This document shows positions 43,927-50,405 of a DNA stretch of 60,067 bases, in pieces. The position numbers and the translations under genes are program-made. This stretch comes from an uncultured bacterium (lineage in GTDB: Bacteria > Bacteroidota > Bacteroidia > Chitinophagales > Chitinophagaceae), in assembly GCA_903834825.1 (NCBI GenBank), contig CAILKQ010000050.1:1-60067 (forward strand), given 5' to 3'. The number at the start of each line of letters is the position of its first letter. Within the stretch, counting starts at the first letter, position 1. The notes under the pieces were generated by a model. The model was not told the DNA's origin and searched no databases. It saw only the letters and a program-made list of their open reading frames with translations.

Positions 43927-44481
43927 ATGAATATTGCGAAAGAACAATTGTTGGTTTTGGTGAATGAAAACGATGAGCCTTTGGGGCTCATGGAGAAGAT
44001 GGAAGTACACCAAAAAGCCTTGTTGCACAGGGCTTTCAGCGTTTTTCTTTTCAACAGCAAAGGCGAAATGCTCTTGCAGCGCCGTGCGCTGGAGAAATAC
44101 CACAGTGGCGGTTTGTGGACCAATACCTGCTGCAGTCATCCTTATCCGGATGAAACCCCCAGCCAGGCAGCCACAAGAAGGATGAGAGAAGAACTTGGTT
44201 TTGAAACTACAGTAAATCCTGCCTTTAGTTTCATCTACAAAGCTGCATTAGACAATGAACTGACAGAGTACGAGTTTGACCATGTATTGATTGGCGAATA
44301 CGATGGACCGGTTTTTCCCAACAAGGATGAAGTGGTTGACTATTGCTACATGAACATGGATGAGCTCCGCGAAAACATGGCGAATCATCCTGAGCATTAT
44401 ACTGAATGGTTCAAGATTGCGCTGCCCATGTTGGAGGAATTTCTTGATACAAACAATGCAATCAGCAATGAAAACCACTAA
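43927..44481 (+). CDS. idi: Isopentenyl-diphosphate delta-isomerase type 1
   Basis: Converts IPP to DMAPP to supply isoprenoid precursors. The 184-residue Nudix protein has the catalytic Cys in 'WTNTCCSHPYPDE', the Nudix box 'RRMREELGF' and the second metal and active-site Glu in 'ELTEYEFDHVLIGEYDG'. Length is normal for type 1. It lies 5 bp after the peroxidase and overlaps crtD by 14 bp, which places precursor supply in the carotenoid operon. Confidence 0.96.
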   Translation: MNIAKEQLLVLVNENDEPLGLMEKMEVHQKALLHRAFSVFLFNSKGEMLLQRRALEKYHSGGLWTNTCCSHPYPDETPSQAATRRMREELGFETTVNPAFSFIYKAALDNELTEYEFDHVLIGEYDGPVFPNKDEVVDYCYMNMDELRENMANHPEHYTEWFKIALPMLEEFLDTNNAISNENH

Positions 44482-45943
44482 AGCCATTGTTGTTGGCGCC
44501 GGCATTGGAGGCATTGCAACCGCCATAAGGCTTGCGATAAAAGGGTTTGAGGTGGAGGTGCACGAAAAAAATGCGGTTGCCGGTGGCAAGTTGTACCTGA
44601 TTGAAAAAGATGGATTTTCTTTTGATGCAGGCCCTTCTCTATTTACCCAGCCAGCCAATGTAGAAGAATTGTTTTCTTTGGCTGGAGAGGATATCAATAA
44701 CTATTTTACCTACGAGCCTGTTCCCATTGCGTGCAGATATTTCTTTGAAAATGGCAAAAAAATCGATGCATTCACCAATCCTCAGGCCTTTGCCGATGAA
44801 ATGCAAGATGCCGTGGGAGAGCCCGCTGAGCATGTGCTGCAGTATCTCCGTGATGCTGAACAGGTCTACGAAAAAGTGGGAACCATTTTCCTAAACCATT
44901 CCCTTCATCAACGGGCTACCTGGTTGCACAAGCGGGTTCTGGATGCCCTTCGTACTGTCAAATTCCCTTATCTTTTCAAGACCCTTGATGGGTTCAACAG
45001 GAGCAGGTTTATCACGCCTGAAGCCGTTCAGGTCTTCAACCGGTTCGCAACATACAATGGCAGCAATCCTTTCAGTGCCCCTGGCATGTTGAGCCTGATC
45101 CCTCATCTGGAACAAAACCAGGGAACCTATTACCCCCATGGCGGGATGATCAATATCCCGAACGCATTGGTTGCCTTGGCAAAAAAAAAGGGAGTACGCT
45201 TTGTGTTGAACAGCCATGTTGAGCAAATTGTTACTGAACAGGGAAGGGCAACAGGAATCGTCACAAATGGCAACTTTGTTCCTGCAGATGCTGTGATCAG
45301 CAATGTGGATGCATATTTCACATACAAGAAATTGCTTGCTGATGAGGAAGGGGCAAAAAAGATATTGCGCAATGAAAGAAGCAGCAGTGCATTGATTTTT
45401 TATTGGGGAATGAAAAGGGAGTTTCCTGCATTGCACCTGCACAATATCTTGTTCAGCGCATCCTATGAAAAGGAATTTGACTGCCTTTTCAAAGAAAAGA
45501 AATTTCATGATGATCCGACCATCTACATCAACATCAGTTCCAAAATGGGAAAGGGCAATGCACCTGAAGGAAATGAGAACTGGTTTGTGATGGTCAATGC
45601 ACCTGCCATGGAAGGCGCAGACTGGGAACTGGAAATCGCAAGGATACGAAAGAACATTGTGATGAAACTGAACAGGATGTTGGATACCGAGATAGAACAA
45701 GATATTTTGGTTGAAGAAGTATTGACGCCTGAGGGTATACAGGCCAGAACGGACTCCTACTTGGGGTCTTTGTATGGAACAAGTTCAAATTCAAAATGGG
45801 CGGCTTTTCTCAGGCATGCCAATTTCACCTCAAAGACAAGTGGGCTTTATTTCACTGGTGGAAGTGTTCATCCGGGAGGGGGCATTCCGCTTTGTTTGAA
45901 GAGTGCTGCCATTGTGAGCAACTTAATGGGAAATCCTGCATGA
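44468..45943 (+). CDS. crtD: Carotenoid 3,4-desaturase (CrtD-type), FAD-dependent
   Basis: CrtI/CrtN/CrtD superfamily flavoprotein of 491 residues. The dinucleotide fold 'AIVVGAGIGGIATAIRLA' is at the N-terminus, and 'LYFTGGSVHPGGGIPLCLKS' is the C-terminal FAD signature. Features that favour CrtD (1-hydroxycarotenoid 3,4-desaturase) over phytoene desaturase are the 'SSSALIFYWGM' block and its place next to cruF, as in Flavobacterium and relatives. The ATG at 44468 overlaps idi by 14 bp; the frame is open upstream but non-homologous. The stop overlaps the cruF start (ATGA). Confidence 0.87.
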   Translation: MKTTKAIVVGAGIGGIATAIRLAIKGFEVEVHEKNAVAGGKLYLIEKDGFSFDAGPSLFTQPANVEELFSLAGEDINNYFTYEPVPIACRYFFENGKKIDAFTNPQAFADEMQDAVGEPAEHVLQYLRDAEQVYEKVGTIFLNHSLHQRATWLHKRVLDALRTVKFPYLFKTLDGFNRSRFITPEAVQVFNRFATYNGSNPFSAPGMLSLIPHLEQNQGTYYPHGGMINIPNALVALAKKKGVRFVLNSHVEQIVTEQGRATGIVTNGNFVPADAVISNVDAYFTYKKLLADEEGAKKILRNERSSSALIFYWGMKREFPALHLHNILFSASYEKEFDCLFKEKKFHDDPTIYINISSKMGKGNAPEGNENWFVMVNAPAMEGADWELEIARIRKNIVMKLNRMLDTEIEQDILVEEVLTPEGIQARTDSYLGSLYGTSSNSKWAAFLRHANFTSKTSGLYFTGGSVHPGGGIPLCLKSAAIVSNLMGNPA

Positions 45944-46614
45944 GCACACGCATACCATATTGGATGAAAAGCCCTTTCCATTGGGCAATTTTTTTGGCAG
46001 TGCTGGTGCATGTTTCAGGGGCCATCGGTATTGCTTTTTTTAGCCCTTCCTTCTTCGTTCCCTTCACGCCCGTCAATCTGTTCTTGATGTTGCTCTTGCT
46101 AATCCTCCATGAGCAGCCCATCAATGTACGTTTTGTTCAGGCATTTCTCATGGCTGTTGTGGTTGGCATGACAACTGAGATGATAGGGGTCAATACAGGA
46201 ATGCTTTTTGGAAACTATTCCTATGGTGAAGTTTTTGGGCGCAAGTTATTTGGCGTTCCTGTTTTGATTGGGATCAATTGGTTTTGCATTGTCTATACTT
46301 CCCATGTTGTTGCCAAGAAATTGAATAGCAATACAATCAAAGGGAAGCTATCTGTTGCACTGCTTGCTGCAACCATTGCTACAGTGTTTGACTGGATCAT
46401 GGAGCCTGTTGCCATGAAGTTGGGTTTCTGGAACTGGAATGATGGCCAAATACCTTTGTTCAATTATTGCAGCTGGTTTGTGATATCTTTTGCTGTTTCG
46501 ATGGCATTTGGCTACTTGAAAATTGAGGCAAACAATAAGTTTGCTCCATATTTCTTGATGATACAAATTCTTTTTTTTCTTTTTCTGCGTTTCAGTCCTA
46601 TCGGCCAATCATAG
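45940..46614 (+). CDS. cruF: Carotenoid biosynthesis membrane protein (CruF-like 1,2-hydratase)
   Basis: Integral membrane enzyme of 224 residues with about seven hydrophobic segments, matching the DUF422/CruF family that adds water across the psi end of gamma-carotene or lycopene. Conserved blocks are 'TEMIGVNTGMLFGNYSYG', 'FGVPVLIGINWFCIVYTS' and 'DWIMEPVAMKLGFWNWN'. The ATG overlaps the crtD stop by 4 bp, so translation is coupled. Together with crtD it would finish the acyclic end group of a monocyclic carotenoid. Confidence 0.87.
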   Translation: MSTRIPYWMKSPFHWAIFLAVLVHVSGAIGIAFFSPSFFVPFTPVNLFLMLLLLILHEQPINVRFVQAFLMAVVVGMTTEMIGVNTGMLFGNYSYGEVFGRKLFGVPVLIGINWFCIVYTSHVVAKKLNSNTIKGKLSVALLAATIATVFDWIMEPVAMKLGFWNWNDGQIPLFNYCSWFVISFAVSMAFGYLKIEANNKFAPYFLMIQILFFLFLRFSPIGQS

Positions 46615-46630
46615 GGATGATAAACATCAT

Positions 46631-46664
46631 TTTGATTACTAAATAAATTAGCATAGTATTGCTA
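46631..46664 (+). promoter_or_regulatory. Promoter of umuDC with overlapping palindromic operator
   Basis: TTTG (46631-46634), a 19 bp spacer and TAGTATTG (46654-46661) match the Bacteroidota promoter with one mismatch in the -7 element. The -7 lies inside a palindrome, TAGCA (46649-46653), 6 bp, TGCTA (46660-46664). A bound repressor would block the promoter; SOS control by LexA is the natural guess for umuDC. The start of transcription would be near 46668, 12 nt before the ATG. Confidence 0.55.
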
Positions 46665-46679
46665 CATAATTTAGTATAT

Positions 46680-47111
46680 ATGGATGGCGAACTTTATCAG
46701 GGGGCGGCCTACAGCGGCTCCAAAGACTATACGCAGCAACAGGTCAAAACAGCCAATGCCACAGGGTTTGGGGCTGCCGCAGATGATTATGCAGAGCGGG
46801 GAATTGACCTCAATGAGCAGCTGATCCGAAACAAGCCTGCCACTTTTTTCATGCGCGTTCGCGGCGAGGCAATGATTGGTGCCGGAATCTTTGACGGCGA
46901 TACGGTGATTGTAGACCGTAGCATCAAACCCGTGAGCGGCAAAGTGGTGATTGCCGTACTCAATGGCGACATGTTGATCCGGCGTTTTGAAAAAGGATTC
47001 AATACAATGCGGCTGGTACCAGAAACCACCCGCCTCGCACCGATTGATATTGATCCTTATGCGGAGTTCAGCATTTGGGGAGTAGTTACTTACGTGATAC
47101 ATCAGGTGTAG
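46680..47111 (+). CDS. umuD: UmuD-like protein lacking the self-cleavage residues
   Basis: Homologue of the polymerase V accessory subunit, 143 residues, immediately upstream of umuC. The fold matches UmuD throughout: 'ADDYAERGIDLNEQLIRN', 'IGAGIFDGDTVIVDRS', 'VVIAVLNGDM' and the end 'FSIWGVVTYVIHQV'. In active UmuD the nucleophile Ser lies in 'GDSM' and the general base Lys in 'VKR/K'. Here they are Ala64 (GEAM) and Arg101 (IRRF), and the cleavage site Cys-Gly or Ala-Gly is Thr28-Gly29. Self-cleavage should be impossible, while dimer contacts look intact. ATG at 46680 is chosen over an upstream TTG. Confidence 0.88.
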   Translation: MDGELYQGAAYSGSKDYTQQQVKTANATGFGAAADDYAERGIDLNEQLIRNKPATFFMRVRGEAMIGAGIFDGDTVIVDRSIKPVSGKVVIAVLNGDMLIRRFEKGFNTMRLVPETTRLAPIDIDPYAEFSIWGVVTYVIHQV

Positions 47112-47113
47112 CC

Positions 47114-48412
47114 ATGTTCGCCATTGTCGATTGCAACAGCTTCTACTGCTCCTGTGAGCGTTTGTTCAAACCCCATTTGAACAGCCAGCCTGTTGTTGTG
47201 CTCAGCAACAACGACGGCTGCATCGTATCGCGTACGGACGAGGCAAAGAAGGCTGGGATTGCCATGGGTGTGCCCTTGTTTGAAAGCCGGGAGCTGATCC
47301 GCCAACATGGCATTTCCGTATTTTCATCCAACTATCATTTGTATGGCGACATGAGCACGCGGGTAATGGATACGCTTCGCCTGCTGGCAGATGATTCCAC
47401 TTATCGCTGTGTCGAAGTTTACTCAGTGGATGAGGCCTTCATCAACCTATCACACCTGCCCTTCCATGCCTTGCAGGGTTTTGCGGAGCGCTTGAGGGAT
47501 GTGGTGGTGCAGTGGACGGGCATTCCGGTATCGGTGGGCATTGCGCCCTCCAAGGTACTGAGCAAGGTGGCCAACCGGCTTGCCAAAAAAGACAAAGTGA
47601 AGAGCCATTGTGTGATGGTCTTGGATGCGGAGGATAAAGTGCAGGAGGCTTTGGAGATGACCGATGTGGCTGATCTTTGGGGGATAGGCCGCAAGTATGC
47701 CCGAAAACTGAAGGACCTTTATGGCATCAATACTGCCTGGCAATTGAGGCATATGCCAGAAGAGTGGGCCAGAAAAAACCTTGGCGGCGTGGTGGGCGTT
47801 CGCATGATCAGGGAGCTGAATGGTTTGTCTTGCATTCAAATGAAGGATCCCCTGGAAAAGAAAAAAATGATTGCCACCACCCGCATGTTTGGCAAGCCCG
47901 TGTATGAATTAAAAGAATTGAAAGAAGCAGTGGCCACCTATGTTTCAAGGGCGGCTGAGAAGCTGAGAAGGCAATATGGTGCTGCATCCTCTATTGATGT
48001 TTTTGTGGTGACCAACGGACAGCAGAGCGGGCAGTATGCCTATGATCCCCAGTACCATCACCGGTACTTCACCATGATGAAACCCACGTCAGACACTGCC
48101 GAACTCATCAGGGTTGCCCTGCCCCTGGTGGAATCCCTTTACCGCAAGGGTTCCAAGTATGCCAAGGCCGGTGTGATGCTCGGTGGTATTGTTCCGGATG
48201 ATGCATTGCAAGGCAATCTTTTTGATGCGCAGAACAAGCAGCAGAACCGCGCGCTCATGCAGGCCCTGGACAATATCAATTTCAGCATGCGGGATGATAT
48301 GGTGAAATTTGTTTCCTCCGGGCTTACCCGCAATTGGAAGATGCGCCAGGAAATGAGGAGCGGAAGGTATACCACGCGGTGGGATGAGGTCTATCAATTG
48401 AAGCTTAGCTGA
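47114..48412 (+). CDS. umuC: Translesion DNA polymerase V catalytic subunit UmuC
   Basis: Y-family polymerase of 432 residues that copies past lesions. Palm motifs are 'FAIVDCNSFYCSCERLF' with the first catalytic Asp and 'CVEVYSVDEAFINL' with the Asp-Glu pair; 'VVVLSNNDGCIVSRTDEAKK' is the finger motif of UmuC. The helix-hairpin-helix 'VADLWGIGRKYARKLKDLYG' and little-finger domain follow. The C-terminal 'WKMRQEMRSGRYTTRWDEV' matches DUF4113. It starts 2 bp after umuD and its end overlaps the convergent epimerase by 8 bp. Confidence 0.96.
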   Translation: MFAIVDCNSFYCSCERLFKPHLNSQPVVVLSNNDGCIVSRTDEAKKAGIAMGVPLFESRELIRQHGISVFSSNYHLYGDMSTRVMDTLRLLADDSTYRCVEVYSVDEAFINLSHLPFHALQGFAERLRDVVVQWTGIPVSVGIAPSKVLSKVANRLAKKDKVKSHCVMVLDAEDKVQEALEMTDVADLWGIGRKYARKLKDLYGINTAWQLRHMPEEWARKNLGGVVGVRMIRELNGLSCIQMKDPLEKKKMIATTRMFGKPVYELKELKEAVATYVSRAAEKLRRQYGAASSIDVFVVTNGQQSGQYAYDPQYHHRYFTMMKPTSDTAELIRVALPLVESLYRKGSKYAKAGVMLGGIVPDDALQGNLFDAQNKQQNRALMQALDNINFSMRDDMVKFVSSGLTRNWKMRQEMRSGRYTTRWDEVYQLKLS

Positions 48413-49430: not shown

Positions 49431-50405
49431 TTACCATCCAAGAATGTAGGCAAAAATAAGCGGTACAACGATGGTTGCATCACTCTCTACAATGTATTTT
49501 GGGGTATTGATGTCCAGTTTGCCCCAGGTAATCTTTTCATTGGGTACTGCCCCAGAGTAAGATCCATAAGAAGTGGTGGAGTCGCTGATTTGGCAGAAAT
49601 AGCTCCAGAAAGGAACATCATGCCATTCCAGGTCCTGGTACATCATCGGAACAACGCAGATCGGGAAATCGCCTGCAATACCGCCACCAATCTGGAAAAA
49701 GCCTACGCCCTTTCCTCCACTGTTCTGGCGGTACCAATCGGCCAGCCAGACCATGTATTCGATACCTCTTTTCATGGTAGTGGCCTTCATTTCATTTTTG
49801 ATGATATAGGAAGCAAAGATGTTGCCCATGGTGCTGTCTTCCCAACCACCAACAACGATGGGAAGGTTGCGTTCAGCGGCGGCAATCATCCAGCTGTCTT
49901 TGGTGTCGATTTCATAATCAGCCTTCATCACACCGCTGTTCAGCAGTGTATACATGAACTCATGCGGAAAATATCTTTCACCGCTCGCGTCAGCATCTTT
50001 CCAGAGCTTTACGATATGGTGCTGTATCCTTCTGAAAGCCTCTTCTTCAGGAATGCAGGTGTCGGTCACCCTGTTCAATCCCTGCTCCAGCAATTCCCAT
50101 TCCTGTTGCGGCGTAAGGTCGCGGTAGTTGGGAACACGTTTGTAGTGGCTGTGGGCCACAAGGTTCATGATGTCTTCCTCCAGGTTGGCGCCTGTACAGG
50201 AAATGATGTCAACCTTGCCCTGCCTGATCATTTCAGCCAGAGAAACACCCAGTTCTGCAGTGCTCATCGCACCCGCCAGGGTAACCATCATTTTACCCCC
50301 TTCGAGCAGGTGTTGTTCGTAGCCTTTGGCAGCATCAACAAGGGCAGCTGCATTGAAATGACGGTAGTGGTGTTGAATGAACGCTGAAACAGGACCTTTT
50401 GCCAT
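49431..50405 (-). CDS. Deoxyhypusine synthase family protein
   Basis: Homologue of the eukaryotic and archaeal enzyme that moves an aminobutyl group from spermidine to eIF5A; bacteria lack eIF5A, and some bacterial relatives make homospermidine or act on other amines. The 324 residues keep the NAD-binding parts 'SCTGANLEEDIMN' and 'FQIGGGIAGDFPICV', and the catalytic stretch 'GAVPNEKITWGK', where the Lys that forms the enzyme-amine intermediate is Lys296 and the preceding Glu and Trp are kept. It is read with the epimerase gene, with no space between them. Confidence 0.9.
   Translation of the reverse strand: MAKGPVSAFIQHHYRHFNAAALVDAAKGYEQHLLEGGKMMVTLAGAMSTAELGVSLAEMIRQGKVDIISCTGANLEEDIMNLVAHSHYKRVPNYRDLTPQQEWELLEQGLNRVTDTCIPEEEAFRRIQHHIVKLWKDADASGERYFPHEFMYTLLNSGVMKADYEIDTKDSWMIAAAERNLPIVVGGWEDSTMGNIFASYIIKNEMKATTMKRGIEYMVWLADWYRQNSGGKGVGFFQIGGGIAGDFPICVVPMMYQDLEWHDVPFWSYFCQISDSTTSYGSYSGAVPNEKITWGKLDINTPKYIVESDATIVVPLIFAYILGW

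Follow-up and report, generated by a model that had tools for sequence, protein, structure and literature searches.

A UmuD clade of the Chitinophagaceae that has lost the Ser-Lys dyad but retains a remodelled N-terminal arm

In Escherichia coli, cleavage of UmuD to UmuD' is the textbook timer that delays the mutagenic DNA polymerase V (Pol V). The umuD gene described here raises the question of how a umuDC operon can be run when its UmuD is unable to cut itself. The gene occupies positions 46680-47111 of the forward strand in a 60,067-nucleotide stretch of DNA from an uncultured member of the Chitinophagaceae (contig CAILKQ010000050.1; the whole stretch is referred to as the window), starts with ATG and encodes 143 amino acids in an open frame. 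Judged by comparison with its relatives, the product is a pseudo-protease, one of a Chitinophagaceae clade of UmuD proteins from which the Ser-Lys dyad has been lost.

Identification as a UmuD rests on matches to Pfam Peptidase_S24 (78.5 bits; cut-off 23.3) and NCBIfam PRK10276 (129.4 bits; cut-off 110). The nearest relatives of solved structure are E. coli UmuD and UmuD', and the AlphaFold core of the window protein matched 1ay9 in Foldseek with a template modelling (TM) score of 0.93 by target length. Sequence profile and fold, the umuC operon and a predicted SOS operator (see below) are all those of a UmuD. The LexA profile TIGR00498 scored 60.7 bits, below its cut-off of 110.95 and over model positions 92-201 only, and the HumD model scored 65.5 bits, below its cut-off of 120. 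No N-terminal DNA-binding domain was found in the 143 residues, the Pfam scan giving Peptidase_S24 alone. The closest protein (99%) is from a Chitinophagaceae bacterium. Alignment with E. coli UmuD placed Ala64 (codon GCA, 46869-46871, forward strand) on Ser60 and Arg101 (codon CGG, 46980-46982, forward strand) on Lys97, bearing out the replacements of nucleophile and base, with their codons and coordinates, that a preliminary description of this DNA had reported. The Thr-Gly pair named there as the cleavage site is likewise Thr28-Gly29 (46761-46766, forward strand), aligned with Cys24-Gly25 at the position of the scissile bond. The protein thus departs from autoproteolytic UmuD and from peptidase family S24 in having Ala64/Arg101 for the Ser-Lys dyad, and it reads N26-A27-T28-G29 where an Ala-Gly or Cys-Gly bond with a hydrophobic P3 residue would stand; with neither catalytic residue in place, it can indeed not cut itself by the known chemistry. 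An alternative start that would encode UmuD' directly was dismissed: reading by eye the codons that separate codon 1 from codon 58 showed no ATG, GTG or TTG, and conservation of the arm is seen in its protein sequence. Nor was a canonical UmuD that might act in trans found elsewhere in the window's genome (2.6 Mb, 93% complete).

The Ala/Arg pair proved to be a property of a clade. The first 127 loci collected (20 from the genus, 27 from the family and 80 from named genomes, some genomes being in more than one set) had Ala/Arg in 106 cases, Ser/Arg in 20 and Thr/Arg in one. With further loci added, removal of rows with identical last 120 residues left 143 distinct clade sequences; 136 of the rows had been chosen by the motif [TSA]-G-F and seven by hand, so that positions 28-30 were part of the selection for most rows. 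All 143 carry Arg101, encoded by CGC (48), CGG (33), AGG (27), CGA (17), CGT (11) or AGA (7). All six Arg codons are thus in use, and Arg is maintained as an amino acid. Position 64 is Ala in 122 sequences (all four codons), Ser in 19 and Thr in two. Because the pair recurs in many genomes, a sequencing or assembly error is very unlikely. In a tree of UmuD sequences the clade (144 rows with the query) stood on one branch of length 0.71 with a Shimodaira-Hasegawa-like approximate likelihood ratio (SH-aLRT) support of 99, the Ser/Arg members nested inside; both dyad columns had been excluded, and with 113 columns and a quick method the forks are weak and the join to neighbouring long branches may be false. 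A singleton, L153, combines a Cys/Arg dyad state with a canonical-looking arm.

The clade is widespread and its gene is under constraint. In the family sample, 92 genomes had a match of at least 51% identity (hand count); the 94 loci fetched for such matches (L001-L047 and L168-L214, some genomes twice) all carried Arg101, 88 as Ala/Arg and six as Ser/Arg. Named isolates such as Pinibacter and Niastella are among the carriers of clade UmuD, with the Ala/Arg state in several Niastella records. The median ratio of nonsynonymous to synonymous substitution rates (dN/dS) for umuD was 0.057 (209 usable of 475 pairs, with dS near saturation), indicating purifying selection; the medians by region were 0.147 for the arm and 0.045 for the core.

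What accompanied the loss of the dyad is seen in the arm. In canonical relatives (48 rows) the arm ends in (V/I/L)-x-A followed by G-F-P-S-P, and P1 is mostly Ala; in the clade it mostly reads N-A-T followed by G-F-G-A-A, with P3 mostly Asn or Asp and P1 mostly Thr. P3 is V, I or L in 47 of the 49 rows that carry Lys, counting E. coli (the two exceptions being a masked residue and an Ala), and in none of the 143 clade rows. Over arm positions -14 to -5 the hydrophobic fraction is 0.20 in the clade (n=140) versus 0.41 in canonical proteins (n=47). The comparison demonstrates that clade UmuD, as aligned, has lost both the dyad and the residues that flanked the former scissile bond. The arm itself is kept: 28 residues precede Gly29 in the window protein (codons 1-28, 46680-46763, forward strand), several of them near-invariant, in a clade pattern of Y11, G13, K15, Q19, V/I22 and T24-A25-N26-A27-T28 (counts among the 143: Y11, 137; G13, 140; K15, 136; Q19, 141; A27, 141; T28, 132). 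Beyond it, Gly29 is present in all 143 and Phe30 in 142. An engineered protein offers a parallel. According to the accessible text of PMC5342242, E. coli UmuD 3A, with the changes T14A, L17A and F18A, is full-length and non-cleavable, and the weak binding of its arm to the globular domain is the reason why it is regarded as mimicking UmuD'. It resembles clade UmuD in its full-length arm, in not being cleavable and in the lost hydrophobic arm contacts; by the mutations given in the same text it keeps Ser60 and Lys97, whereas clade UmuD is a natural protein in which both are gone.

The preliminary description also held that the gene keeps a promoter. An upstream control region is present, but it is better described as an exact Bacteroidetes-type SOS box, CTAAATAAATTAG (46639-46651, no strand assigned), accompanied by a second copy with one mismatch, CTACATAATTTAG (46662-46674, no strand assigned). 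One-mismatch matches are not rare as such, five being observed in the window against 13 expected by shuffling. A possible -7 element, TAGTATTG (46654-46661, forward strand), was picked out by eye 19 bases past a TTTG at 46631-46634, with the exact box in between; both were read against the Bacteroidetes promoter consensus. CTAA-N5-TTAG, the motif used here, is the SOS box of the Chitinophagaceae, and HTH-S24 (helix-turn-helix) repressors have been described for it (PMC8565304, as far as its text is accessible). The window's genome has four exact sites, versus 72 for a reversed control pattern, and they precede umuDC, a gene for a 251-amino-acid HTH-S24 protein, and recA (two boxes). The genes behind exact boxes in this genome make up a minimal SOS set of HTH-S24 repressor, recA and umuDC. 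In the 251-residue protein the motifs GDSM and YKR, with Ala-Gly upstream, suggest by eye that the Ser-Lys dyad is present; S24 chemistry, lost from UmuD, would thus survive in the repressor part of the SOS switch. Throughout the clade, an exact box lies within 200 base pairs (bp) upstream of umuD in 140 of 142 testable genes (one further stretch was too short), and it occurred in 49 of 7100 letter-shuffled upstream regions and in front of 15 of 42 canonical umuD genes. By motif match, then, the clade umuD operon clearly has a predicted SOS operator.

The umuC gene (47114-48412, forward strand) starts 2 bases past the umuD stop and encodes 432 amino acids; it was recognised by its open frame, by profiles and by its catalytic acids. 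With umuD and umuC frames both open, the earlier statement that the gene is kept beside a complete partner stands. All 95 complete clade partners have D6, D106 and E107, and the motifs show the predicted polymerase subunit to be intact. Two residues of the little finger, in which Pfam IMS_C spans UmuC 250-369, set these partners apart: Met258 (47885-47887, forward strand) and Val299 (48008-48010, forward strand). Among distinct complete partners, position 258 is Met in 94 of 95 from the clade, versus Ser in 37 and Gly in two of 39 canonical ones; in ten partners of other Arg-bearing, mostly arm-less, UmuDs it is Ser (eight) or Gly (two), never Met. Position 299 is Val in 91 and Ile in four of the 95. 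When all loci with a letter at the position are counted (genomes in two collections thus being counted twice), Met258 is found in 184 of 185 clade loci and 0 of 56 canonical loci, and Val or Ile at 299 in 177 of 177 clade loci, 0 of 55 canonical loci and 0 of 10 other Arg-bearing loci. Both states recur in a more distant group, f24 (see below), with Met258 and Ile299 each in 10 of 10. Seven of the 11 clade-specific UmuC residues fall in the little finger and tail; as this enrichment had no usable control clade, weight is put only on the two positions that recur in f24. In the sequences compared, Met258 and Val/Ile299 track UmuDs that retain the arm and are predicted to be non-cleavable. A Pol V model places the UmuD' arm between the palm and little finger of UmuC (accessible part of PMC11791011), and the covariation is what a retained arm docked there would lead one to expect.

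In 109 of the 143 clade members umuC follows umuD on the same strand at a distance of no more than 400 bp, two more being too near the end of their stretch to tell; in 32 it is absent from that interval despite room. Re-examination of 31 of these (L179 was left out) gave 18 with umuC on the same strand but at a greater distance downstream, six with it divergently oriented and seven without it in the stretch. The distant downstream copies usually lie behind inserted frames. In L114 an IS200-like transposase gene (PF01797; L114:3532-3999) lies between umuD and umuC, and frames similar to the eye are found in several other loci; another insert is without a Pfam match.

Loss of the dyad is not confined to this clade. 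All 19 loci from other families of the phylum (best matches) were Ser/Lys, as were 19 of 20 fetched from the same order outside the family, the other, L292, being Ala/Arg with a short N-terminus. Forty further loci of the phylum, hand-picked and non-random, gave 28 Ser/Lys, 11 Ala/Arg or Gly/Arg, which are all the loci from a second family, f24, and one Ser/Arg (L336). The idea that non-catalytic UmuD is restricted to the Chitinophagaceae was accordingly wrong: the f24 loci (L299-L309), which belong to the same phylum but not to the window's class, have Ala/Arg in 10 and Gly/Arg in one of the 11 fetched. The f24 proteins share with the clade Thr at P1 and a retained arm, which in five of 11 begins M-E-[GD]-x-x-I-Y-Q-G, recalling by eye the arm of the window protein, as well as Met258 and Ile299 in UmuC; umuC lies downstream in 10 of 11. 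They differ in keeping GFPSP or GFVSP past the old site and in their control region, no exact CTAA box being found in the 220 bp upstream of f24 umuD genes. Repeated ACATAT words are common to most f24 upstream regions (L299-L309, L337-L347). Within the family, eight other UmuD-like genes (L143, L146, L147, L149, L156, L160, L163 and L164) read as starting Met-Gly/Ala/Leu-Phe, which is the N-terminus of UmuD', without an arm; in all eight the catalytic Lys is replaced by Arg. Their starts were inferred from the first Met, and the frames of L143, L146 and L149 continue upstream without one. A mobile origin of the clade gene was considered and rejected: the 69 phage records with a match were all below 60% identity (best 41%), and of at least 5000 plasmid records the matches listed were all below 60% (best 50%). 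Both phage records in which the dyad was checked had Ser/Lys.

How, then, might such an operon be controlled? We give a probability of about 0.6 to the reading that uncleaved clade UmuD works as UmuD' does, Pol V being licensed by transcription, presumably with RecA, and not by UmuD proteolysis. Full-length clade UmuD would dimerise and bind UmuC like E. coli UmuD'; its arm would no longer dock in the old cleft, so that nothing would have to be cut off. Instead, the conserved arm would have been built into the polymerase for good, perhaps touching the little finger of UmuC at Met258 and Val/Ile299, while licensing would come from derepression at the SOS box through the dyad-bearing repressor and from RecA as a Pol V subunit. 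We prefer this reading on three grounds: the dyad, the cleavage-site residues and those for arm docking were lost together; the polymerase, behind its SOS box, is intact; and some other umuD genes of the family code for UmuD' from the start. It amounts to the constitutive accessory subunit, which of the three roles put forward in the preliminary description fits best; the case for a brake on UmuC, or for cleavage by a different protease, is weaker. More tentatively, it is possible that the uncleaved arm was recruited as a lasting structural element of the polymerase in both the Chitinophagaceae and f24, bound to a matching hydrophobic patch on the UmuC little finger formed by Met258 and Val/Ile299.

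Several points weigh against a UmuD'-like role. Ultraviolet (UV) mutagenesis in E. coli is greatly reduced with the uncleavable S60A protein (accessible parts of PMC5342242 and PMC3901139), so that a UmuD that had lost nothing but its dyad would act as a brake, and a brake would equally predict a conserved arm. In AlphaFold models the predicted local distance difference test (pLDDT) values for the arm are low in the clade protein and in a canonical control alike, which makes the models uninformative on docking. UmuD matches of any kind were found in 121 of 195 genomes of the family sample, and a nearby umuC is lacking in the 32 members mentioned above. Finally, no more than one or two events in the past may lie behind the UmuC covariation. 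A single origin for the clade and f24 was not rejected by the approximately unbiased (AU) test on UmuD (p-AU 0.546; L163, L167, L153 and L332 left out of this second tree and clade rows thinned to 52), nor on UmuC (p-AU 0.279), where the unconstrained tree nevertheless sets the two apart; the clade was thinned to 33 rows in the first UmuC tree and to 18 in that used for the origin test.

The chief alternative would make clade UmuD a permanent brake or checkpoint subunit, the uncleaved protein keeping UmuC inactive or slowing replication, with mutagenesis rare or otherwise triggered. It likens clade UmuD to E. coli UmuD before cleavage and draws on the S60A phenotype and arm conservation just cited. 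We consider it unlikely, as an intact polymerase with invariant catalytic acids under an SOS box would then be permanently off, and the clade arm is without the hydrophobic make-up and the P3 residue that hold the arm down in E. coli.

Somewhat less probable still is removal of the arm in trans by another protease, at or near the conserved A-T-G-F, to yield UmuD'. The near-invariance of these four residues would suit such a site, and E. coli UmuD S60A can be cleaved in trans by another UmuD (PMC5342242, accessible text). However, the residues for recognition by an S24 active site are gone (P3, and mostly P1); the repressor is the only other S24 protein seen in the window's genome at 93% completeness; and 78 of the 92 family genomes with a match of at least 51% identity had no second match at an expectation value (E) of 1e-5 (hand count). 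A general protease would provide no damage-dependent switch unless itself regulated. Self-cleavage by a non-classical route, in which Arg101 would serve as base and the nucleophile would be water or another residue, is very improbable: the Ser64 and Arg101 of 19 clade members would allow for it, but the Ala64 of 122 members offers no nucleophile at that position, and no Ser, Thr or Cys is found among the core positions that are conserved above 0.8 in the clade and differ from canonical UmuD, a search by conservation for which no side-chain model was inspected. A functionless relic or decaying gene, for which it speaks that matches are present in only part of the genomes (32 of 41 in the genus, one of them the canonical Ser/Lys L166, and the family fraction given above, some genomes being incomplete), so that the gene can be lost, is scarcely credible given open frames, an SOS box in nearly every member and near-invariant positions, and is contradicted by the selection data.

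HumD of phages P1 and P7 is UmuD-like and needs no processing. P7 HumD starts MGFPSP, has no arm and has Ser and Lys aligned with the dyad, whereas clade UmuD keeps the arm and has lost both residues; the eight arm-less UmuDs of the family share the HumD-like architecture, but carry Arg for the Lys that HumD keeps. UmuDAb of Acinetobacter, another relative of UmuD, has changed its role, as clade UmuD would have done; the N-terminal DNA-binding domain of a UmuDAb-type regulator was not found in the window protein. E. coli UmuD and UmuD' are like the clade proteins in sequence family, core fold, umuC operon and SOS control site; E. coli UmuD must, however, be cut for Pol V, while clade UmuD is without the Ser-Lys dyad and the P3 residue and has a conserved arm of its own. 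No earlier account of a non-catalytic UmuD clade was found in the literature searched, of which few subscription papers were within reach and which included the accessible parts of PMC8565304, PMC12926913, PMC6511836, PMC11791011, PMC5342242 and PMC3901139.

Around the operon, carotenoid-type genes (43927-46614; a Nudix protein, an amine-oxidase/phytoene-desaturase-like protein and Caroten_synth) end just upstream of umuDC. A gene of the deoxyhypusine synthase family (49431-50405, reverse strand; PF01916, 139 bits) is found here in a bacterium.

Bacteria of this clade probably control their mutator without a cutting step. If the uncleaved arm has indeed been recruited, SOS mutagenesis would proceed in them without the proteolytic delay that separates error-free and error-prone phases in E. 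coli. The finding also bears on annotation: the NCBIfam model named 'autoproteolytic subunit' matches 92 of 92 members of alignment A1 (E of 0.001 or better), 61 of which, the query included, belong to the non-catalytic clade, so that the name covers UmuDs predicted to lack the activity. For structural work on Pol V the clade would supply natural UmuD' equivalents with intact arms. A widespread clade that keeps the SOS site and Pol V without the timer would show the proteolytic step to be dispensable, and would offer a natural test of what UmuD proteolysis is for.
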